This document shows positions 6,818 to 58,183 of a stretch of 64,000 nucleotides of DNA, one piece after another. The number at the start of each line of letters is the position of its first letter. Within the stretch, counting starts at the first letter, position 1. Source of the DNA: Knoellia sp. Soil729 (GTDB lineage: Bacteria > Actinomycetota > Actinomycetes > Actinomycetales > Dermatophilaceae); assembly GCF_001427985.1 (NCBI RefSeq), contig NZ_LMSA01000001.1, positions 821,164 through 885,163 on the forward strand, in the 5' to 3' direction. The notes below the pieces were generated by a model. It ran no database searches. It had not been told where the DNA came from and worked only from the letters and a program-made list of their open reading frames with translations. A program made the translations under genes and the position numbers.

Positions 6818-8037
6818 CGCCCCACCTCCTCAGCAGGCGCGGCGAGCAACGAAGCGGCCACCGCGAGCTCCAGCAGGTAGGGCGACGCGTCACCCAGGCC
6901 GGTCTCGGTGATCGAGGCGATGATGCAGTAGACGATGAGGAAGAGGGCCAAGGCACGGCGTGGCCCCTGGACGTGGGTGGCCGCGGCCAGCAGGAGCACG
7001 AGCACGAAGCTCATCTCGACCAGCACGCCGAACCAGCCCTGGTCGACATAGCTCGCGAGCCAGTTGCTGTCGACGGCCAACCCGTCGAAGGACTTGTTGG
7101 ACAGTCCGGAGCCGAACATCTGCTCCAACAGTGGTCTCGGGGTGGCCGCAATCGCCGCCCACACGTCGGTGCGGCCGGTCAGCCGGCTCGCCTCGCTCGC
7201 CGACTGGCCCCGCGCCAGCCAGTTGACGACCTGGGGCGCAAAGAGCGTGGCCCCCACGATCAGCCCGATCAGCGTCGAGATCGAGAACCGACGGACCCGT
7301 GCGTGGCCCAGGAACAGGCTGGCCGACGCCACGATGGTCCCGAGGAGAGCACCGAGGAGGGCGGTGCGGGTGTGGGTGCCGATGAGCACCGCGACGGTGA
7401 CCACCACGGCCACGAGGGCGTGCCGACCCGTGACGAGGTGGCACAGCCAGAGGATCAAGGTGGTGCCGAACAGCACGGCCGCGAAGTGGGCCACCTGGGT
7501 CGCTGGTACCGGCCACAGCGCACCGCCAAGCCGGCCCTCGAACGCAAACGCCTTCCCGGGGGCGACGGCCGCTCCGACGATGACGGTGACGAGGACCCCC
7601 CACAGGCAGAGCCTGTGTGCTCGCAGAAGCACGAGGTCACGCCGCCCCCACCATGGGGACAGCAGCCACAGCACCGTGACGAAGAGGACCAGTCGCACCC
7701 CCCGATAGAGGGAGCCGAGGAAGAACTCGCTGCCCAGGCTCACGACGAAGGACGCGAGCGCGAGCACGGTCAGCAGTCCGAGGAACAACGTGGGACGCAC
7801 CAGTAGGCGCCGGTTGGCGAGGAGGGCCAGCGACAGGGCGAGCACGAGCGCGCCCTGGGTCACGAGCTGGAGGAGCCGTGGCGGGATCGGCACGAGGGTC
7901 TCGACGGAGGCCGGCGGCATCACGTTCAGGAAGAGCGCCGCCCACGCCGTCAGCACCACGACCGGCACCCGATGGGGCCTGGCGACGGGTCGACCGCCCG
8001 CCTCGGGCGCCGTGCGCGCCTGGAGGTTCACTGTCAT
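6814..8037 (-). CDS. O-antigen ligase/polymerase-like membrane protein (Wzy/WaaL superfamily)
   Basis: 407 residues, about ten to twelve transmembrane segments, and a larger periplasm-facing loop in the C-terminal half containing SRLTGRTDVWAA and a GSGLSN stretch. This layout and the R-x3-G-R loop are typical of the O-antigen ligase/polymerase superfamily. In a locus with an initiating transferase and Wzz-like proteins it most likely polymerises the repeat unit outside the membrane; transfer to an anchor is the alternative. The start was taken at the ATG at 8037, which overlaps the preceding stop (ATGA); upstream codons are low-complexity Arg/Gly/Pro and belong to the neighbour in another frame. 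No Wzx-type flippase gene is seen in the window, so one must lie elsewhere. Confidence 0.85.
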   Translation of the reverse strand: MTVNLQARTAPEAGGRPVARPHRVPVVVLTAWAALFLNVMPPASVETLVPIPPRLLQLVTQGALVLALSLALLANRRLLVRPTLFLGLLTVLALASFVVSLGSEFFLGSLYRGVRLVLFVTVLWLLSPWWGRRDLVLLRAHRLCLWGVLVTVIVGAAVAPGKAFAFEGRLGGALWPVPATQVAHFAAVLFGTTLILWLCHLVTGRHALVAVVVTVAVLIGTHTRTALLGALLGTIVASASLFLGHARVRRFSISTLIGLIVGATLFAPQVVNWLARGQSASEASRLTGRTDVWAAIAATPRPLLEQMFGSGLSNKSFDGLAVDSNWLASYVDQGWFGVLVEMSFVLVLLLAAATHVQGPRRALALFLIVYCIIASITETGLGDASPYLLELAVAASLLAAPAEEVGR

Positions 8038-9812
8038 CGGGAGCTCGCCACCTTCGCCGGCAGCTGCTCGTCGGCAGCCTCGTCCTGGCGGCCCAACGTG
8101 CGGTCCGTCCGGTCGGCGCCCTCGAGTAGGGCGAACGGGACGAGCACACCGCTTCGCGTGACGAGGGCTGTCACCGTCTCGAGCAGGTCGCGGTTGGCGC
8201 TTCCGGCCGAGACGAGGGGCACGACCTGGGTCACCCACGTGGCCACGATCCCCAGGTCGACGCCCGGGTCCACCTCCAGCAGCACCAGCACGACCTCGGC
8301 CTGCTCCCACAGGTCGTGCAGCCCGTCGACCTCCTGGGCCTCACCACGGGTGGAGCTGCCCCCGCGCTGAGGCCCTTCGATGAGGGCGGGGTTGCCGGCG
8401 GGGCGGTAGAGGCCTGGTGATCCGGGGCCGCCCGTCGAGGTCCCGGCGAGGTTCGTGGGGGCGGGCCCGGTCAGGGCACCGGAGGAGGTGAGGTCCACGA
8501 GGAGCACGGGCACGCCCTCGGTCGCCAGACGGTTGCCGAGAGCTGCCACGAGAGCGGCGGCCGCACGGGGCCGGTCGATCCCGACCACACCGATCGTGCA
8601 GGGACGCGGCGGCCTGCGGCCAGTGGCGCCCTTGGCCCCCGCCGTCAGCCCTCCGGCAGCGGAGCCGGCCCCACGCGGGCGCGTGCCCTGGCCGTGGGCG
8701 GCACCCGGGCTCGGGGAGTCGGCGCGCCGCAGGACGGCGTGGAGCCGCGGGGGCAGCGCATGCCCGAGACCGTGGACCAGCGCCTCGAGACGCCAGGATC
8801 GACCGCCCCTGCCGCGCGTCGGGTGGGCATGCCGGGCGACCGTGCCGGACGTCCCACGTGACCGTGGCGCCAAGGCGCCCGCCGACCGGCGCCGCCACCA
8901 TGCTCCGACCCGTCCGACGCTGACGAGCACCGGCACCCCCAGGGCCGCAGCGATGTCGCGACGCCGACGCAGCCGGTCCGACGTCAGCGTCGTGAAGAGG
9001 ATCGTCCCGATCGCCAGACCCCCTCCGACGATCGCTCCGGCCACCGGGACCACGACGGCCTCGCGCCGCGACGAGGAGGGTTTCGTCCCGGCCTCATCGA
9101 GCACGTGCGTGGCGCTGATGGCCGCGTCAGCCCGCAGGTGTGCGTCCTCGATGGACCTCTGCAGCTCGGTGACCTCCGCCCCCAGGGCGGCGCGCCGGCT
9201 GACGATGTCGCTGACGAGGACCTGGTCGGGGGCCGGCTGGGCAGAGAGTCGTCGGTACTGCCGGGTGAGCTCCGCGATCTCGGACTGCAGTGCAGTCACC
9301 CGCTTCGTGTACCCATCGACCAACCCCCCGGAGATGGACTGAAGCTGCTCGGTGCGGAAGGCCAGGAAGTTGTCGACGAGGGACGTGGTGCGCGAAACCG
9401 CCTCGTCGGAGGTCGCCGCACCGACCTCCACCTTGAGGATCTGGCTGCTCACCGGCGTCGCCGTGACCGACGACAGGAACTGCTCCGGCGACTCGCGCAA
9501 CCCCAGGTCCTCGACGACGCGCGCCCCGACGGCCCGGGTCTGCAGCAGGGTGACGTCGGTGGTCATCGCCGATGAGTCGTCCGGGTTCGGCGACACCATG
9601 AGCAGGGTGGCCGTGGCACTGAACGGTCGGGGCAGGATCCGGAATGCCCCCATCCCGAGGAGCGCACCGATGAGGGCGGCCGCGCACCACAGGGGCCAGG
9701 TGCGCCGCAGGGCGCTGACGAGGGCACGCCCGGTGACGAGCACAGCTCCGGGGCTGGCGTCGAGGTCCAGCGCCGCGTCGTCGTTGTCCGCACGGAACGT
9801 CGGGGCCCTCAT
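8034..9812 (-). CDS. Wzz-like polysaccharide co-polymerase with degenerate C-terminal kinase-like domain
   Basis: 592 residues. Transmembrane segment 1 lies at about 39-58 and segment 2 near 245-268, flanking an extracytoplasmic helical region with coiled-coil character; this is the Wzz/polysaccharide co-polymerase layout. The cytoplasmic tail first has about 130 Arg/Gly/Ser-rich residues that look disordered, then a domain resembling the BY-kinase/ParA fold (VVGIDRPRAAAALVAAL, VLLVDL). The P-loop glycine-lysine-serine is absent, and there is no tyrosine cluster at the C-terminus. ATP hydrolysis is therefore unlikely. It probably sets chain length or organises the export complex together with the next gene. 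The start (ATG 9812) overlaps the upstream stop (ATGA). Confidence 0.83.
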   Translation of the reverse strand: MRAPTFRADNDDAALDLDASPGAVLVTGRALVSALRRTWPLWCAAALIGALLGMGAFRILPRPFSATATLLMVSPNPDDSSAMTTDVTLLQTRAVGARVVEDLGLRESPEQFLSSVTATPVSSQILKVEVGAATSDEAVSRTTSLVDNFLAFRTEQLQSISGGLVDGYTKRVTALQSEIAELTRQYRRLSAQPAPDQVLVSDIVSRRAALGAEVTELQRSIEDAHLRADAAISATHVLDEAGTKPSSSRREAVVVPVAGAIVGGGLAIGTILFTTLTSDRLRRRRDIAAALGVPVLVSVGRVGAWWRRRSAGALAPRSRGTSGTVARHAHPTRGRGGRSWRLEALVHGLGHALPPRLHAVLRRADSPSPGAAHGQGTRPRGAGSAAGGLTAGAKGATGRRPPRPCTIGVVGIDRPRAAAALVAALGNRLATEGVPVLLVDLTSSGALTGPAPTNLAGTSTGGPGSPGLYRPAGNPALIEGPQRGGSSTRGEAQEVDGLHDLWEQAEVVLVLLEVDPGVDLGIVATWVTQVVPLVSAGSANRDLLETVTALVTRSGVLVPFALLEGADRTDRTLGRQDEAADEQLPAKVASSR

Positions 9813-52850: not shown

Positions 52851-52963
52851 GCATGACGCGGGCCGAACGTGCCTGTGCGAGCTCAACTCCGGTCATGACG
52901 CCTGCCCAAGGCGGCACCCGGACGTCTTTCGCCGTCGGTCCCGCGTCATGCAGCGGCGGGACC
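52851..52963. repeat. Inverted repeats in the gap before the secreted-protein gene
   Basis: GCATGACGCGGG (52851-52862) is repeated inverted at 52940-52951 with 77 bases between; a second dyad CGGTCCCG/CGGGACCG lies at 52936-52943 and 52956-52963. The right arm is shared, so two folds compete. CATGACGC recurs at 52894. The 279-base gap holds no gene; the promoter of the following gene should lie here. Confidence 0.6.
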
Positions 52964-53064
52964 GGAGTCTTCATCGGTGTAGCGAGAAGCAGCGGGACCC
53001 CTCTGCAACCGCCACGACGGAACCAACGCAACGGTGGCCCCTCGGGCCCCACGAAGGAGAAGTC

Positions 53065-53613
53065 ATGATGAAGTCCAAGCTCGCCGGAACCGGAACGGCC
53101 GTCCTGTTGGCGGGTGCCCTGGGATTCCTGCCCGGTGCTGCGGCAGCCAACGCCGCCCCCGCCTCATCACACGCCGTGTCGGCCGCAGCGGCCAAGAAGG
53201 CAGCACCGACAACACTGCCGGTGACCGGCACCCTCGCCGACGGCACCGCCTTCAGTGGGGCCGTGAGCAACCTCACGACCTCCGTGGTCAACGGAGCCCT
53301 CCAGCTGACCGGAACGATTACCGGGACGGGCCTACCGACCGGCGGCAGCACCTTCACGGCTCCGCTCCAAAGCGTCACCACGCCTGACGGGTGCAAGATC
53401 CTCACCCTGGACATTGGTGCGATCCACCTCGACCTGCTGGGTCTTGTCATCGACCTGGCCCCGGTCAACCTGGACGTCACGGCGGTTCCCGGTGCGGGCA
53501 ACCTCCTCGGCAACCTGCTGTGCGCCGTCGCCGGACTCCTCGACAACACGGGCAACCCGCTCGGCGGCATCTCCGCACTGCTCAACCGGCTCCTCACCGG
53601 GCTCGGACTCTGA
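53065..53613 (+). CDS. Small secreted protein with hydrophobic GNLLGNLLC-type repeat domain
   Basis: 182 residues. ATG at 53065 with AAGGAG at good spacing. Signal peptide 1 to about 34 (basic start, Ala/Leu core, ANAAP cleavage region). The mature part has a beta-rich half (LPVTGTLADGTAFSGAVSNL, TSVVNGALQLTGTITGTGLP) and a C-terminal half with ILTLDIGAIHLDLLGLVIDL, VTAVPGAGNLLGNLLCAVAG. I recall the last motif from secreted proteins of haloarchaea and various bacteria with no known function. It may assemble at a surface or membrane. Own terminator follows. The next gene encodes a related cytoplasmic protein. Confidence 0.85.
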   Translation: MMKSKLAGTGTAVLLAGALGFLPGAAAANAAPASSHAVSAAAAKKAAPTTLPVTGTLADGTAFSGAVSNLTTSVVNGALQLTGTITGTGLPTGGSTFTAPLQSVTTPDGCKILTLDIGAIHLDLLGLVIDLAPVNLDVTAVPGAGNLLGNLLCAVAGLLDNTGNPLGGISALLNRLLTGLGL

Positions 53614-53620
53614 CCCGCCC

Positions 53621-53660
53621 GGCACCCATGACGCCCTCCCTCCCGGGTGTCATGGGTGCC
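53621..53660 (+). terminator. Terminator after the secreted-protein gene
   Basis: Perfect 12-bp arms GGCACCCATGAC (53621-53632) and GTCATGGGTGCC (53649-53660), 16-base loop, 7 bases past the stop. Confidence 0.8.
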
Positions 53661-53705
53661 CCGCGGTCAGGCTGGACACCCTCACCACGGCCCAAGGAGG
53701 CACCC

Positions 53706-54140
53706 GTGACGGTCATTGCCTTTCGACCCCGGCCCCGCCCCGAATCGGCCCCAGCGCCCGAGGAGCAGACCGCCATCACTGGCACCTTCCGTTCGCCACG
53801 CGGTTTCGTCGGCACCATGACCGGTCAGCTCCGCTTGCACAAGATGGTCATCGCTCCTCGTGGCGCCTTCGTACGGGGCGTCTTCACGGGAGAGCTGCGC
53901 GAGCCCGATGGGACGCTCGTCGGTGCGGACAGCCGACGCTGCGTCGTCCCGGCTGACCTCACGCGCTGCGACGGTGTCCTGCGCGCGGTGGTCCGCCCGA
54001 TGCAGCTGGACCTGATGGGCATCATGGTCGACGTCGGCGCGTTCATCGTGAGTGCCGACATGGCATTCCCGCCACCGGCACGTCCACGCCGCATTCGGCG
54101 TCAGGCCACAGCCGCGGGCGTCCCCGGGCAGCTTTCGTGA
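53706..54140 (+). CDS. Cytoplasmic relative of the preceding secreted protein, unknown function
   Basis: 144 residues, no signal peptide. GTG at 53706 follows AAGGAGG. The order of features repeats the upstream protein: a beta segment (AITGTFRSPRGFVGTMTGQLRLHKMVI, over about 23-49), GAFVRGVFTGELREPDGT, a Cys, then VVRPMQLDLMGIMVDVGAF, which parallels IGAIHLDLLGLVIDLAPV. The GNLLGNLLC tail is replaced by a short basic segment. I do not know a family name. It overlaps the next small gene by GTGA, so they are coupled. Confidence 0.75.
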   Translation: MTVIAFRPRPRPESAPAPEEQTAITGTFRSPRGFVGTMTGQLRLHKMVIAPRGAFVRGVFTGELREPDGTLVGADSRRCVVPADLTRCDGVLRAVVRPMQLDLMGIMVDVGAFIVSADMAFPPPARPRRIRRQATAAGVPGQLS

Positions 54141-54445
54141 AGGCCACCGCCTTCGCCGCACCGGTGCTGGTCCTGGCCCTGATCCATCTGCTGCACCGGA
54201 TCGAGGTATGGGCCCGGAGCGACACCAGACCTGCTTCGCAGCGCCCGCCCACCCGTCCTCTCCTGAAGGGTCAGCCCATGCCTGTCGCGTCATCGCGCTC
54301 CCCCCAAGCCGAGGCCCTCCCACTGCCGCACGACCCGCCGCCACCCCCCGGTTGGGTCGACCCACTCGCGGGAACCGGCGTAGAGGAAACCGTCACCACC
54401 ACGCCCGCGGACGAGGAGAAAGTCTCAGGCCGGAAGGCCCGGTGA
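54137..54445 (+). CDS. Small protein with one membrane segment and Pro-rich tail, unknown
   Basis: 102 residues. GTG at 54137 overlaps the preceding stop (GTGA). One hydrophobic segment (AFAAPVLVLALIHLL, about 5-19) is followed by HRIEVWARSD and a Pro/Ala/Glu-rich tail. No family recognised. The coupling overlap is the main evidence that it is translated. A stop 30 bases before the sigma-RsbT fusion gene puts it in the same neighbourhood but probably in a different transcript. Confidence 0.55.
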   Translation: MKATAFAAPVLVLALIHLLHRIEVWARSDTRPASQRPPTRPLLKGQPMPVASSRSPQAEALPLPHDPPPPPGWVDPLAGTGVEETVTTTPADEEKVSGRKAR

Positions 54446-54462
54446 GCAGCGGCGGCGCGGCG

Positions 54463-54468
54463 TAGGGT
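54463..54468 (+). promoter_or_regulatory. -10 element of leaderless sigma-RsbT operon
   Basis: TAGGGT followed by 7 bases (CGCCCAC) and the GTG at 54476. No ribosome site is present. It marks the start of the four-gene stressosome-like operon. Confidence 0.6.
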
Positions 54469-54475
54469 CGCCCAC

Positions 54476-55561
54476 GTGACCCCGTCCGCTGCCAGTGACG
54501 AGCCGCAGCTGGAGGCACAAGAGTCGGCAGATATCGCCGGTCTCGTGCCCTTGCTGCAGCGCATCGTGACGGCCCGCGTCGGACAGCACCCCGCGGCGGA
54601 GGACATCATCCAGGAGACTCTGGCCAGGGTTCTCGCCGCCGAGGACCGCATCGAGCCCGGGATGCTCGAGCCCTACGCGATCACCACCGTGCGCAACGTC
54701 ATCGCGTCCATGTGGCGCAAGGACGACGTCGCCGCCCGCAACCAGCACCGCATGCACGACCCCAGCGAGTCCGTCGAGGCCGCCGAGCTGCTCGTCGCCT
54801 CCGAGGAGCAGCTGGCGATGACCGAGGCCCTGGCCCGGCTGACCGACCGCGAGCGCCAGGTCCTCCTCGCCCACGAGGTGTCCGGGCTCGCCACTCAGGT
54901 GTTGGCCGACGAGGTCGGAAGCACGGCGGGCGCCGTGGCCGCCCAGCTCAAGCGAACGCGTGCCCGTCTGCGCGTCGAGTACGTCCTCGCGCTCGAGGGC
55001 ACGGAGCCGCCGACGGACCGGTGTCGAGCCGTGCTGCTTGCGTTGTCCAGTGCCGACCGCCGCCGTCAGCGTGAGCTGGACAGCGCTCGCCACCTCCTCG
55101 AGTGCGACGTCTGCGCCCGGCTGAGCGAACCACTGCTCGATCGTGCACCAGAGCGCCCTGATGAGGTCCGTGTCCCGATCGGGGCGGACCCCGACATCGT
55201 CAGCGCCCGCCAGGCCGCACGCGAGCTCGCCGTGCGGGCCGGCTTCGTGGGTGCCGACCTGACGATGCTCGCCACGGCCGTGTCCGAGGTGGCTCGCAAT
55301 ATCGTTCGGTTTGCCGAGAGCGGCGAGGTCAGCATCGAGCTCCTCGCACGTCCACGGGCCGGCATACGGGTCATCGCCCGCGACACTGGGCCAGGCATCT
55401 CTGACATCGACCGGGCGCTGCAGGACGGCTTCAGCACCTACGACGGCCTCGGTCTGGGGCTCCCCGGGGCCCGACGTCTCATGGACGAGTTCGAGGTCGC
55501 GTCCGCTCCCGGCAAGGGCACCACCGTGAGCATGACCAAATGGTTCGAGAAGAAGGGTTGA
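54476..55561 (+). CDS. Fusion of sigma-70-family (ECF-like) factor, zinc motif and RsbT-type serine/threonine kinase
   Basis: 361 residues, one uninterrupted frame. Residues about 20-92 are sigma region 2 (AAEDIIQETLARVL, VRNVIASMWRKDD); about 108-172 are sigma region 4 (ALARLTDRERQVLLAHEVSGL, then the helix-turn-helix VLADEVGSTAGAVAAQLKRTRARL). HLLECDVC (206-213) is an HxxxCxxC zinc motif like that of zinc-binding anti-sigma factors. Residues about 232-358 are an RsbT-like GHKL ATPase with N-box SEVARN (Asn275), DTGPGI (303-308), GLGLGLPG (324-331) and RLMDEF, very close to Bacillus RsbT. RsbT normally is separate; it phosphorylates RsbR/RsbS and activates RsbU. Fusing it to a sigma factor implies that the stressosome encoded next door captures and frees the sigma factor itself. 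Leaderless GTG. Confidence 0.9.
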   Translation: MTPSAASDEPQLEAQESADIAGLVPLLQRIVTARVGQHPAAEDIIQETLARVLAAEDRIEPGMLEPYAITTVRNVIASMWRKDDVAARNQHRMHDPSESVEAAELLVASEEQLAMTEALARLTDRERQVLLAHEVSGLATQVLADEVGSTAGAVAAQLKRTRARLRVEYVLALEGTEPPTDRCRAVLLALSSADRRRQRELDSARHLLECDVCARLSEPLLDRAPERPDEVRVPIGADPDIVSARQAARELAVRAGFVGADLTMLATAVSEVARNIVRFAESGEVSIELLARPRAGIRVIARDTGPGISDIDRALQDGFSTYDGLGLGLPGARRLMDEFEVASAPGKGTTVSMTKWFEKKG

Positions 55562-55563
55562 CC

Positions 55564-56460
55564 GTGGACACTCATAGCTTTGGCGAGGTTCCTCCCGAGG
55601 ACCAGGAGGCATCCTCTGACGACCAGCTGCTTCCTCAGCTCGTGGCGCACTTGCGCGAGCACCGCGGAACCCTGCGGGACGACTGGGCGTCGAGGATCCA
55701 CGACTCGCACCTGCTCGAGGCCATGACCCCGCAGGAGATGGTGACCGAGACCACGTCGGTCTACGACAACTATGTCGGGGTCCTCGAGACCGGCAGCGTG
55801 GAGGCGCTCCAGCACTATGCGCGCGACCTGTCCGAGCGCATCATCCCGCGCGGGGTGGAGACCCATGAGGTCGTGGGCATCGTGCTGCTGCTGCGCGACG
55901 TGCTCGCCCGGTCGCTCTTCGAGAAGTACCAGAGCGACTTCGGGCTGCTCAACCGCGTGCTCAACGCCTACGAGCCGGCGGCCAACCGCATCGCCAACAC
56001 GGTCGCCGTGAGCTTCGTCGACGAGCGCGAACGCGTCATCCGTCAGCAGCAGGATGCCATCCGGGAGCTGTCGACACCTGTGCTTCCCGTGCGCGAGCGA
56101 CTGCTCATCCTGCCGATCATTGGCGTTCTCGACGGTGAGCGCGCCAAGCAGCTGACCGAGCAGCTCCTGCGAGGCATCAGAACCCACCGGGCCAAGGTCG
56201 TCGTCATCGACATCACCGGTGCGCCCGACGTCGACGAGACGGTGGCCAACCACTTGGTGCAGACCGTCGACGCCTCGCGTCTCATGGGCGCCAGCGTCAT
56301 CATCACCGGCCTCTCGCCCACCATCGCACAGACCCTCGTCACCATCGGCGTCGACCTCAGCAAGATGAACACCATCGGAGACCTCCAAGGTGGCTTGGAG
56401 GAGGCCGAGCGGCTCCTGGGCTACACGGTCACACGCAAGGAGGTGATGGACGGATCGTGA
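55564..56460 (+). CDS. Stressosome co-antagonist RsbR-like (RsbRD N-terminal domain plus STAS)
   Basis: 298 residues; GTG 2 bases after the fusion gene stop. Residues about 21-165 are an all-helical RsbRD-type sensor domain (no PAS, LOV or haem motif seen). Residues about 175-290 are a STAS domain: LPIIGVLDGERAKQL, VVVIDITGAPDVDETVANHLV, IITGLSPTIAQTLV. By comparison with Bacillus RsbRA recalled from memory, Thr257 (in IAQT) matches the second phosphosite, while the first appears to be Glu225 with Thr226 beside it. With RsbS it should form the stressosome shell that binds the RsbT domain. Confidence 0.92.
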   Translation: MDTHSFGEVPPEDQEASSDDQLLPQLVAHLREHRGTLRDDWASRIHDSHLLEAMTPQEMVTETTSVYDNYVGVLETGSVEALQHYARDLSERIIPRGVETHEVVGIVLLLRDVLARSLFEKYQSDFGLLNRVLNAYEPAANRIANTVAVSFVDERERVIRQQQDAIRELSTPVLPVRERLLILPIIGVLDGERAKQLTEQLLRGIRTHRAKVVVIDITGAPDVDETVANHLVQTVDASRLMGASVIITGLSPTIAQTLVTIGVDLSKMNTIGDLQGGLEEAERLLGYTVTRKEVMDGS

Positions 56461-56837
56461 CGTCCGGACCTGCTCTCGTCTCCATCCTGCGACAGGGTGA
56501 CGTCCTTGTCGCGTCGGTCCACACTGCCCTGGACGACTCCCAGATGCTCCGGTTCCAGCACGATCTCGTGCGTCAGATCGGTGAGCACCGGGCCCGTGGC
56601 GTCATCATCGATGTCGCTGCGCTGGACGTCATCGACAGCTTCGCCTCGCGCACCCTCCAGTCGATCGCCGACATCTCCCGGCTCCGCGGAGCCGCGACCG
56701 TGATCGTCGGCATCCAGCCCGACGTGGCCTTCGCCATGGTGCGGCTCGGCATGGGCATCGGAGAGCTGCCCACGGCGCTGGACCTCGAGGAGGGCATGGT
56801 CCATCTCGCTCGGGTCCGCGACCGGGCACGGCGATGA
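56457..56837 (+). CDS. rsbS: RsbS-like STAS antagonist
   Basis: 126 residues, a single STAS domain. GTG overlaps the rsbR stop (GTGA). LDVIDSFASRTL contains Ser61 at the place of the RsbT-phosphorylated serine of Bacillus RsbS; VIVGIQPDVAFAMVRLGM and LPTALDLEEGM complete the fold. RsbS is the core scaffold that holds RsbT in unstressed cells. Downstream overlap ATGA. Confidence 0.93.
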   Translation: MTSGPALVSILRQGDVLVASVHTALDDSQMLRFQHDLVRQIGEHRARGVIIDVAALDVIDSFASRTLQSIADISRLRGAATVIVGIQPDVAFAMVRLGMGIGELPTALDLEEGMVHLARVRDRARR

Positions 56838-57145
56838 CGCTCGACGTCGAGGACCTGACCCGCGACTACCGAGCCGCCTTCCTCGCGTATCTGCCCCAGC
56901 GCAGCGAGTCGGCGCTCACCCTGGGCTACCGGATCGGCCGCCGAGCCGTGGACGAAGGGGTGAGCCTGCTCGACCTGGTCAGCGTCCACCACGTCGTGCT
57001 CGCCGAAGTCCTCGACGACCTGCCGCACGGGACGCCCTCGGCGGTCATCGAGTCCGCGGCTGCCTTCCTGCTGGAAGTGCTGTCCACGTTCGACATGGCC
57101 CACCGAAGCCTCCGCCGCTCCCACGGTGACGGCGACGAGAACTGA
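56834..57145 (+). CDS. Stand-alone RsbU N-terminal (RsbT-binding) domain protein
   Basis: 103 residues. YRAAFLAYLPQRSESALTLGYRIGRRAV, VSLLDLVSVHHVVLAEVL and FLLEVLSTFDMAHRSLR match the four-helix RsbU_N domain that binds RsbT in Bacillus, where it is followed by a PP2C phosphatase. Here the protein ends after the domain and no PP2C gene follows on this strand. ATG overlaps the rsbS stop (ATGA). It may be the partner that receives the freed sigma-RsbT protein, or a dimerising adaptor for a phosphatase encoded elsewhere. Confidence 0.85.
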   Translation: MTLDVEDLTRDYRAAFLAYLPQRSESALTLGYRIGRRAVDEGVSLLDLVSVHHVVLAEVLDDLPHGTPSAVIESAAAFLLEVLSTFDMAHRSLRRSHGDGDEN

Positions 57146-57184: not shown

Positions 57185-58183
57185 TCACCTCGGGAACGTG
57201 TCGCCGCCATCAGGATCTGCGCCAGATCTCTCGAAGGCGACATCAATCTGCTGGTACTGCTTGAACCGCCCGATCCGGGCCTGCTGGGCGTAGGCCTTAC
57301 GGTCGCCGTCGGTGAGCTCCACGTCGTCGGTGAAGGGGGTGAGCAGGGACCGCGGATAGAGCCGGTTCGCCCGCACCACGTCTGCCTCCGCGAAGAACAC
57401 CGTGCCGAACGCGGCAAGGTGGAAGAACGCGAACAGGCCGATGACGATCCCGAAGACACCGTTGGTCGCAGAGGTCGTGTTGACCACGCGCTCGACCAGC
57501 TGCACCCCGAAGTACTGCAGCAGCTGCCAGGTCATCGCGGCGCCGACGGCTCCCACCGCCACCTGCCGAAGCTTGAGGTCGATCGCCACCGCCCGCCGCA
57601 TTCCGAGGGCGAAGACGAGCGCGGTCCCGAGGAAGGTGGCCACGGTGACGGCAACGCGCGTCACCAGCGGGAAGGTGCTGATCGCCCTTGCGCTGACGAT
57701 GGTGACCGTGGTCGTGAGGACGACGAAGAGCAGGATCGTGAGCAGGAGCAGGAGGCTGCGCCCACGTGCACGGAAGGGGTTGGGGCGGGAGTTGCGGGGC
57801 ACACCCCACACCGTGTTCATCGCGTACTGGAAGGCCTGTCCGACGCCCAGTCCGCCATAGAGCGCGACGACGCTGCTCACGACGACTCCGGTGATGCTCC
57901 CGCGCAGGGTCTGGGGGTCGCCGAGCTGCGCGCCGATGACCGGGATCTCCTGCAGCGCCGAGTCGAGCACCCGCTGCTGCAGGTTCGGGTAGTTCGACAG
58001 CACGAGGCTCAGTCCCGTGGAGAAGATGAGGAGCAGCGGGAAGAACGACAGGAACGCGTAGTAGGCGATGAGCCCGACGAGATAACCCGCCTGGTCGTCG
58101 AAGAACTTGTACAGGACGGCAAGCGGGTACCCGAGGACGCGATGCTCGCGCTGGAAGCGGTCCAGCGGGCCGAGTTGTGCCAC
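57185..58183 (-). CDS. YihY/BrkB-family membrane protein
   Basis: 332 residues, six membrane helices. Family blocks: AGYLVGLIAYYAFLSFFPLLL near 32-52, GGLGVGQAFQYAMNTVWGVP, a central multi-helix core, and YFGVQLVERV near 220. Once called RNase BN, the family is now an uncharacterised transporter-like group. The GTG at 58183 has no strong ribosome site. It converges with the stressosome-like operon, ending 39 bases from it, and is divergent from the PucR regulator. Confidence 0.92.
   Translation of the reverse strand: MAQLGPLDRFQREHRVLGYPLAVLYKFFDDQAGYLVGLIAYYAFLSFFPLLLIFSTGLSLVLSNYPNLQQRVLDSALQEIPVIGAQLGDPQTLRGSITGVVVSSVVALYGGLGVGQAFQYAMNTVWGVPRNSRPNPFRARGRSLLLLLTILLFVVLTTTVTIVSARAISTFPLVTRVAVTVATFLGTALVFALGMRRAVAIDLKLRQVAVGAVGAAMTWQLLQYFGVQLVERVVNTTSATNGVFGIVIGLFAFFHLAAFGTVFFAEADVVRANRLYPRSLLTPFTDDVELTDGDRKAYAQQARIGRFKQYQQIDVAFERSGADPDGGDTFPR

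Follow-up and report, generated by a model that had tools for sequence, protein, structure and literature searches.

The closest described systems include the stressosome of Bacillus and Listeria with its RsbU-RsbV-RsbW-SigB cascade; in Bacillus, the relay of several proteins linking stressosome to sigma factor makes the stressosome difficult to study through its output. Stressosomes are also coupled to outputs other than SigB: those named for rsbRSTX modules in the relevant part of PMC9237108 comprise PP2C phosphatases, cyclic-di-GMP proteins and phosphorelays, none of which is a sigma factor joined to RsbT. In stand-alone actinobacterial rsbRST operons (the mycobacterial system, PMC8115616, and six loci, L119–L124, used here as a comparison set), RsbT is unfused, and RsbX-like proteins and RsbU-type phosphatases are encoded. 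Sigma factors of the groups ECF48, ECF52 and ECF53, such as SCO4117, are described in the relevant parts of PMC8999054 and PMC5826349 as single chains in which a ZAS-like zinc domain comes after sigma regions 2 and 4; loss of SCO4117 lowers the rdl and chp (surface-protein) transcripts.

The window, a stretch of 64,000 nucleotides from Knoellia sp. Soil729, contains a four-gene operon whose first product is, by its domain matches, an ECF-type sigma factor joined to an RsbT-type kinase (Table 1). The first-pass annotation had read this gene as one frame of 361 residues uniting sigma regions 2 and 4 with an RsbT-type kinase, with which the Pfam matches agree, and had reported an HxxxCxxC motif, which is present and whose ligand set is completed by an additional upstream cysteine (C183). 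The sigma half consists of regions 2 and 4 only, as in an ECF (group 4) sigma factor, scores 63.3 bits against NCBIfam sigma70-ECF (cut-off 42.9) and has invariant columns across 21 aligned fusions. The kinase half has a HATPase fold (Pfam HATPase_c, residues 261–354, E 4e-13), and its RsbT-like N, G1 and G2 boxes, previously described as intact, are invariant in 21 fusions; by sequence alone, its best-matching solved structures are SpoIIAB (anti-sigma F) chains. The RsbU-contact arginines, as given in the pertinent part of PMC12143880, are retained in the RsbT domain of 40/40 fusions. An RsbW-type anti-sigma domain in place of RsbT was ruled out by the adjoining RsbR and RsbS genes and by the nearest stand-alone relatives of the RsbT domain, which sit in rsbRST operons.

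Table 1. Features of the fusion operon and its upstream region (positions within the window).
Feature	Position	Strand	Remarks
Two-part promoter-like element CGCGTCA-N19-TCTTCA	52942..52973	+	predicted site of the fusion sigma factor
182-aa secreted protein of unknown family	53065..53613	+	predicted target; signal peptide judged from the N-terminus
Companion protein, 144 aa	53706..54140	+	weakly related to the 182-aa secreted protein
Small protein, 102 aa, hydrophobic N-terminus	54137..54445	+	
Leaderless -10-like element GCGTAGGGTC	54460..54469	+	just 5' of the fusion start
Sigma-ZAS-RsbT fusion	54476..55561	+	GTG start; 361 aa
Sigma region 2	54545..54724	+	residues 24–83; Pfam Sigma70_r2, E 5e-10
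Sigma region 4	54815..54970	+	residues 114–165; Pfam Sigma70_r4_2, E 2e-7
ZAS-type zinc ligand stretch C183-x22-H206-x3-C210-x2-C213	55022..55114	+	invariance in relatives; without a Pfam match of its own
RsbT-type ATPase	55199..55540	+	residues 242–355; Pfam HATPase_c and HATPase_c_2
RsbR-like sensor/scaffold	55564..56460	+	GTG start; PDB RsbR match, E 9e-37
RsbS-like scaffold	56457..56837	+	PDB RsbS match, E 2e-24; Ser61 conserved
RsbU_N-only protein, 103 aa	56834..57145	+	Pfam RsbU_N, E 4e-17; without a phosphatase domain

A frameshift joining two genes, raised earlier as a possible artefact, was ruled out by the alignment of 40 distinct fusion proteins (the window's own included), and the fusion is not an artefact because it recurs in many genomes, two of which (G007 and G392) are single contigs. 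Its carriers are some soil actinobacteria; no relative was found in the viral contigs searched, and no plasmid record covered 80% of the query. The literature searched contained no description of a sigma factor fused to RsbT. The gap of 2 bases between the fusion and RsbR genes and the 4-base overlaps at the two following junctions, noted in the first-pass annotation, agree with the coordinates. When the neighbours of sigma-RsbT proteins were tabulated, as had been proposed, the order fusion-RsbR-RsbS-RsbU_N was found at 39/39 loci long enough to show four genes. RsbR and RsbS homologues are thus encoded with RsbT at every complete locus, and Ser61 of RsbS, aligned to the DSF-motif serine, is kept in 43/43 aligned RsbS rows. 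The operon shares with Bacillus and Listeria the RsbR, RsbS and RsbT homologues, the phospho-serine of RsbS and the RsbU_N domain, but joins RsbT to an ECF sigma factor, lacks RsbV, RsbW, RsbX and the RsbU phosphatase, and differs at the T205 position of RsbR (E, Q, A, H or V in 37/37 readable rows); the RsbRD_N match of the window's RsbR-like protein is sub-threshold in Pfam.

An RsbX-like query matched 0/40 fusion loci, some of which have short flanks, and RsbU-type phosphatase matches were missing from the fusion operons, which encode the RsbU_N domain only, whereas RsbX-like and RsbU PP2C queries matched 6/6 stand-alone loci. At four of these (L119, L120, L121 and L123), RsbR is 79–81% and RsbT 52–56% identical to the window's. 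The operon thus matches neither an rsbRSTX module nor the SigB partner-switching cascade, and the reported absence of RsbV, RsbW and the phosphatase from the window was borne out, as no further STAS, HATPase_c_2 or SpoIIE-phosphatase match was found there at E 1e-3.

The element GCGTCA-N19-TCTTCA occurs near 23/40 fusion operons and 0/15 other loci, with 0–1 matches for 20 alternative spacings, and lies mostly 5' of small secreted-protein genes. Among fusion-bearing genomes of the family, it is located ≤3 kb from the operon in 18/26; its exact 13-base form is present at the operon in 10/12 fusion-bearing genomes, with 1 exact match in 8 fusion-lacking genomes. When one mismatch was allowed, matches numbered 75 in the 12 fusion-bearing and 50 in the 8 fusion-lacking genomes, the same number per genome, and 80/186 genomes had a 12-base match of some kind, in many cases a single conserved sequence. 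The strict element is missing from 17/40 fusion loci, and G392, G193, G817 and G759 yielded no match in a pattern search. In Geodermatophilus, the same element stands 5' of unrelated small secreted proteins; in G934 it precedes a small secreted protein that lies beyond the 15 kb surrounding the fusion, in L023 a frame without a secreted look, and in G044 and G045 a look-alike of the 102-aa protein has its own copy. It is unlike the SCO4117 motif, CSGYN-17bp-SRHA, given in the relevant parts of PMC8999054 and PMC5826349. The window's secreted protein is encoded in 23/26 family genomes with the fusion and 4/160 without it, the latter four lacking the element; this co-occurrence partly reflects linkage and kinship. 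From these patterns we infer that the element is recognised by the fusion sigma factor, and the neighbouring secreted-protein gene behind it is its likely target. Autoregulation of the ECF type was unsupported, the conserved feature upstream of the fusion being a leaderless TANNNT element (≤22 bases from the start in 27/38 fusions; shuffled mean 1.6, maximum 6), and searching the fusion's upstream region for dyads yielded 5/38 at best, no better than shuffles. In the window, read-through into the operon from the secreted-protein genes 5' of the fusion is possible.

The genome encodes two small STAS proteins, other HATPase proteins and one SpoIIE phosphatase outside the window, and the sigma half could on that account be a mere partner- or DNA-docking module, with the RsbT half acting on an RsbV/RsbW or phosphatase pathway located elsewhere. 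Such an arrangement is very improbable, given that regions 2 and 4 score as sigma regions with invariant columns, that the promoter-like element tracks the fusion and that the operon is without an RsbU phosphatase.

The best reading, to which we assign a probability of about 0.58, is that the stressosome serves as the direct anti-sigma factor of an ECF-type sigma factor with a very small regulon. The shell itself would store many sigma copies by their RsbT tails and free them in one phosphorylation step onto one to few small secreted-protein genes, the phosphatase-less RsbU_N protein taking the freed tail. Because the sigma factor is joined to the shell-docking part, the shell could retain the switch and let it go without an intermediary, and this is supported by the invariant operon, the lack of RsbX and RsbU phosphatases in it, and the intact RsbT motifs and RsbS serine; the lack of RsbX counts against it, since resetting is then without explanation. 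In the resting state, the RsbT domain would be docked on the RsbR/RsbS shell, which would hold the linked sigma domains away from RNA polymerase; the intervening ZAS domain would probably assist. Once a signal reaches RsbR, the RsbT domain would phosphorylate Ser61 of RsbS and detach, whereupon the RsbU_N-only protein, its probable receiver, would bind it and delay re-docking. The freed sigma factor would drive CGCGTCAT-N18-TCTTCA promoters, chiefly ahead of the neighbouring small secreted-protein gene, and a regulon confined largely to this one gene would be very small.

The invariant RsbU_N gene (39/39 complete operons) also admits an inhibitory role, in which its product captures the released fusion and blocks the sigma factor or acts as a decoy, so that release alone switches nothing on. 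RsbU_N is indeed the RsbT-binding part of Bacillus RsbU, according to the pertinent part of PMC12143880, but its binding marks the active branch there, and both the shell and the ZAS domain would be superfluous for inhibition; we regard this role as improbable.

The ZAS signature C-x22-H-x3-C-x2-C, with predicted zinc ligands, lies between sigma factor and RsbT in 40/40 fusions, as in the ECF48/52/53 type, and recurs in 9/9 sister loci that have the same sigma-ZAS half with a hydrophobic tail in place of RsbT and no rsb or stressosome genes beside it in the stretches examined. Where ECF48/52/53 have a membrane-helix tail and proposed proteolysis, in the relevant part of their description, the fusion has an RsbT tail and predicted stressosome control. 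The top 19-residue hydropathy past CxxC is 0.92–1.60 in the 40 fusions versus 1.68–2.35 in the 9 sisters, and by this measure no transmembrane helix follows the ZAS domain in the fusions. Two changes are required for the fusions in a sigma-ZAS tree that includes a distant outgroup, where a weak branch (84/26) has the sisters as one of its sides; in the RsbT tree, fused and stand-alone forms need two changes each. Given the position of the ZAS-type domain, inhibition may take place within the molecule, with docking perhaps only controlling the inhibitor. The ZAS domain would then be the true inhibitor and the RsbT domain a lever that opens or closes the ZAS clamp on binding or leaving the shell or RsbU_N, and the sigma factor might be active even while docked. 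The invariant ligands in fusions and sisters and the joined domain described for ECF48, 52 and 53 (PMC8999054, in the part concerned) favour this arrangement; against it, the invariance of RsbR and RsbS next to the fusion is less simply accounted for, and the structure model of the fusion (pTM 0.53) leaves the relative placing of its domains unfixed. We consider it unlikely, if the most serious alternative to direct control by the shell.

The proposal of the first-pass annotation that a shortened stressosome directly controls a sigma factor thus stands as the best reading, supported by the comparison; activation by release and docking on the shell remain its conjectural parts, and the ZAS domain, the RsbU_N receiver and the likely target gene have to be added to it. 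New here are the invariant ZAS signature in the fusion, the absence of RsbX and RsbU phosphatases from the fusion operons, and the fusion-linked two-part element. A single step appears to link the sensor shell with the switch kinase and the sigma factor, and the predicted output is one or few genes, so that signal, release and transcription could be followed in a small reconstituted system. The output could be read directly at the candidate promoter element, which would also offer a way into the uncharacterised secreted proteins of actinobacteria from soil and desert.

The fusion of an ECF-type sigma factor, a zinc anti-sigma (ZAS)-type stretch and an RsbT-type kinase is real and conserved. 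Its sigma part exceeded the NCBIfam sigma70-ECF cut-off, and the AlphaFold model (mean pLDDT 83, pTM 0.53) supports its folded domains, not their placement. The 2-base gap and 4-base overlaps reported between the four operon genes in the first-pass annotation were confirmed by the coordinates. Searches of the open PMC literature brought up no sigma-RsbT fusion; the 2021 ECF classification, which is outside that scope, may already hold a group for these proteins.

Features of the operon and its upstream region in the window
Feature	Position	Strand	Remarks
Secreted protein	53065-53613		182 residues, no known family; upstream of operon
Companion	53706-54140		weakly related to secreted protein; upstream of operon
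Small protein	54137-54445		upstream of operon
Fusion	54476-55561	+	361 residues; frame reading, domain matches
Sigma region 2 of fusion	residues 24-83
Sigma region 4 of fusion	residues 114-165
Cys/His stretch of fusion			short; after sigma region 4, before RsbT-like ATPase
RsbT-like ATPase of fusion	residues 242-355
RsbR-like gene	55564-56460		directly after fusion
RsbS-like gene	56457-56837
RsbU_N-only gene	56834-57145

Full-length fusions were detected in 5/9 genomes of the genus, including the host genome (3.6 Mb, 8 contigs), and in 26/186 genomes of the family. A 27th family genome (G138) carries only an RsbT piece, a decayed copy (L111, about 7834-8370) without rsbR or rsbS that is directly preceded by a copy of GCGTCA-N19-TCTTCA. 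Even sampling of the class yielded the fusion in 4/394 genomes, two of which (G193 and G392) belong to other families, and a phylum sample in 4/396, with G817 and G759 being new. Eleven of 18 named-genome loci also contained it (six in Geodermatophilus, two in Blastococcus and one each in Phycicoccus, Modestobacter and Marmoricola); the Phycicoccus locus (L016) duplicates L093 and was not carried into the comparison set. The comparison set comprised 40 different fusion sequences, including that of the window. The order fusion-RsbR-RsbS-RsbU_N was kept in all 39 loci of sufficient length, with identities to the window's proteins of 78-93% for RsbR and 51-79% for the fusion; L112, which stops within rsbR, was left out of both analyses. 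The operon promoter seems to be leaderless and of the housekeeping type, as a TANNNT-type leaderless element precedes 27/38 fusions. A BrkB-family membrane protein (57185-58183, minus strand) is encoded convergently with the operon and is also found near it in L090, L092 and L098.

The signature C-x22-H-x3-C-x2-C between the sigma and RsbT parts was unvarying in 40/40 fusions. Nine sister proteins share the sigma-ZAS half with the same Cys/His spacing and carry, in place of RsbT, a hydrophobic stretch followed by a further domain, a layout described for ECF48, ECF52 and ECF53 (PMC8999054). None of the nine sister loci (7.8-17 kb each) contained RsbR, RsbS or RsbU_N matches, so the stressosome genes accompany the RsbT domain, not the sigma domain. 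The sister family (L114-L116, L141-L146) spans several actinobacterial families, and its conserved C-terminal domain bears an ADEGFWxG motif.

The secreted-protein gene upstream of the operon is the likely target of the sigma factor, judging from sequence comparisons. No Pfam or NCBIfam family was found for the secreted protein and its companion (53065-54140), which show weak profile similarity to each other. At E <1e-3, the secreted-protein profile matched in 26/40 fusion loci, the weakest matches being the companion, and in 0/15 other loci; the gene sits on either side of the operon, depending on the locus. Across the family, the protein was present in 23/26 genomes with and 4/160 without the fusion (Fisher p 3e-22, without a correction for kinship); one of the 23 matches (G144) is distant and partial.

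GCGTCA and TCTT at 19-base spacing were found upstream in 17/24 loci with a strong secreted-protein match (maximum of ten shuffles, 4 loci). Over whole loci, the strict element GCGTCA-N19-TCTTCA occurred in 23/40 fusion loci against 0/15 others, and each of the 20 alternative spacings between 10 and 30 bases gave 0 or 1 locus; near forms were present in L092, L096, L106, L109, L110 and L127. A strict match lay within 3 kb of the operon in 18/26 fusion-bearing family genomes. The pattern is not rare (80/186 family genomes), and the matches often represent one conserved sequence that is also present in fusion-lacking genomes. The exact 13-base form CGCGTCA-N19-TCTTCA was located at the operon in 10/12 fusion-bearing genomes, with further sites elsewhere in G001, G044, G045 and G175 and none in G007 and G144, against a total of one match, overlapped by long open frames (G008), in eight fusion-lacking genomes. 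With one mismatch allowed, the sets did not differ (75 matches in the 12 against 50 in the 8 genomes), so that near-perfect sites alone are informative.

The tie between element and fusion appears not to be mere linkage. Unrelated small secreted proteins lie behind the strict element in Geodermatophilus (L019, L024, L026) and behind a one-base variant in Blastococcus (L022), where the protein has a sub-threshold chaplin match; such proteins in Geodermatophilaceae (these loci and L244) have about 95-150 residues. The strict element was not found in the 15-kb fusion locus of G934 (L021), and elsewhere in that genome CGTCAT-N18-TCTTCA precedes a similar protein. G044 and G045 carry one copy ahead of the companion and a separate one ahead of a small-protein look-alike; these related genomes (L177, L178, L197, L198) have three exact 13-base sites each, located before the companion, before a small membrane-like gene and in a place without explanation. 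Also in favour of this view, the element was absent just upstream of the secreted-protein homologues in four fusion-lacking genomes (0/4). Against it, a search of 13 genomes gave 16 matches (5 at the operon, the G934 site and 10 without evident link) and none in G392, G193, G817 and G759, and the L023 site precedes a frame not secreted in appearance.

The arginines corresponding to R19 and R23, through which Bacillus RsbT contacts RsbU (PMC12143880), are retained in 40/40 fusions, which makes the RsbU_N protein a credible partner of the RsbT domain. RsbU_N proteins comprised 91-133 residues where measured; the 235 residues in L101 reflect a wrong start choice. RsbX-like and RsbU-type PP2C queries both matched in 6/6 stand-alone RsbT loci (L119-L124), with RsbU_N and phosphatase sharing one chain in L119, L120 and L123. 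Among the 40 fusion loci (3.6-19 kb each, some with short flanks), the RsbX-like query gave no match and the PP2C query a single one, at the far end of L101. The host genome's sole SpoIIE-type phosphatase match, outside the window (L034, 1489-2616, minus strand), is a possible resetting enzyme for the RsbX-less operon; by eye, its N-terminus appears membrane-spanning.

The RsbS serine was present in 43/43 aligned rows. Of the RsbR rows, 37 could be read: at the T205 position, 27 have E, 6 have Q, 2 have A, and H and V occur once each, with T or S as the next residue in 27 rows; at the T171 position, 26 have S, 5 have G, 3 have R, 2 have T and 1 has Q. In Listeria, T209E at the place matching T205 is a phosphorylation mimic, and a damped response has been linked to phosphorylation there (PMC12154155, preprint). 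Our guess is that RsbR is locked in one state, RsbS then being the main switch. At rest, the fusion would be docked on the shell with its sigma factor off; upon arrival of a signal at RsbR, RsbS would be phosphorylated at Ser61 and the fusion then released, its freed tail would be captured by RsbU_N, and the sigma factor would transcribe from the two-part element.
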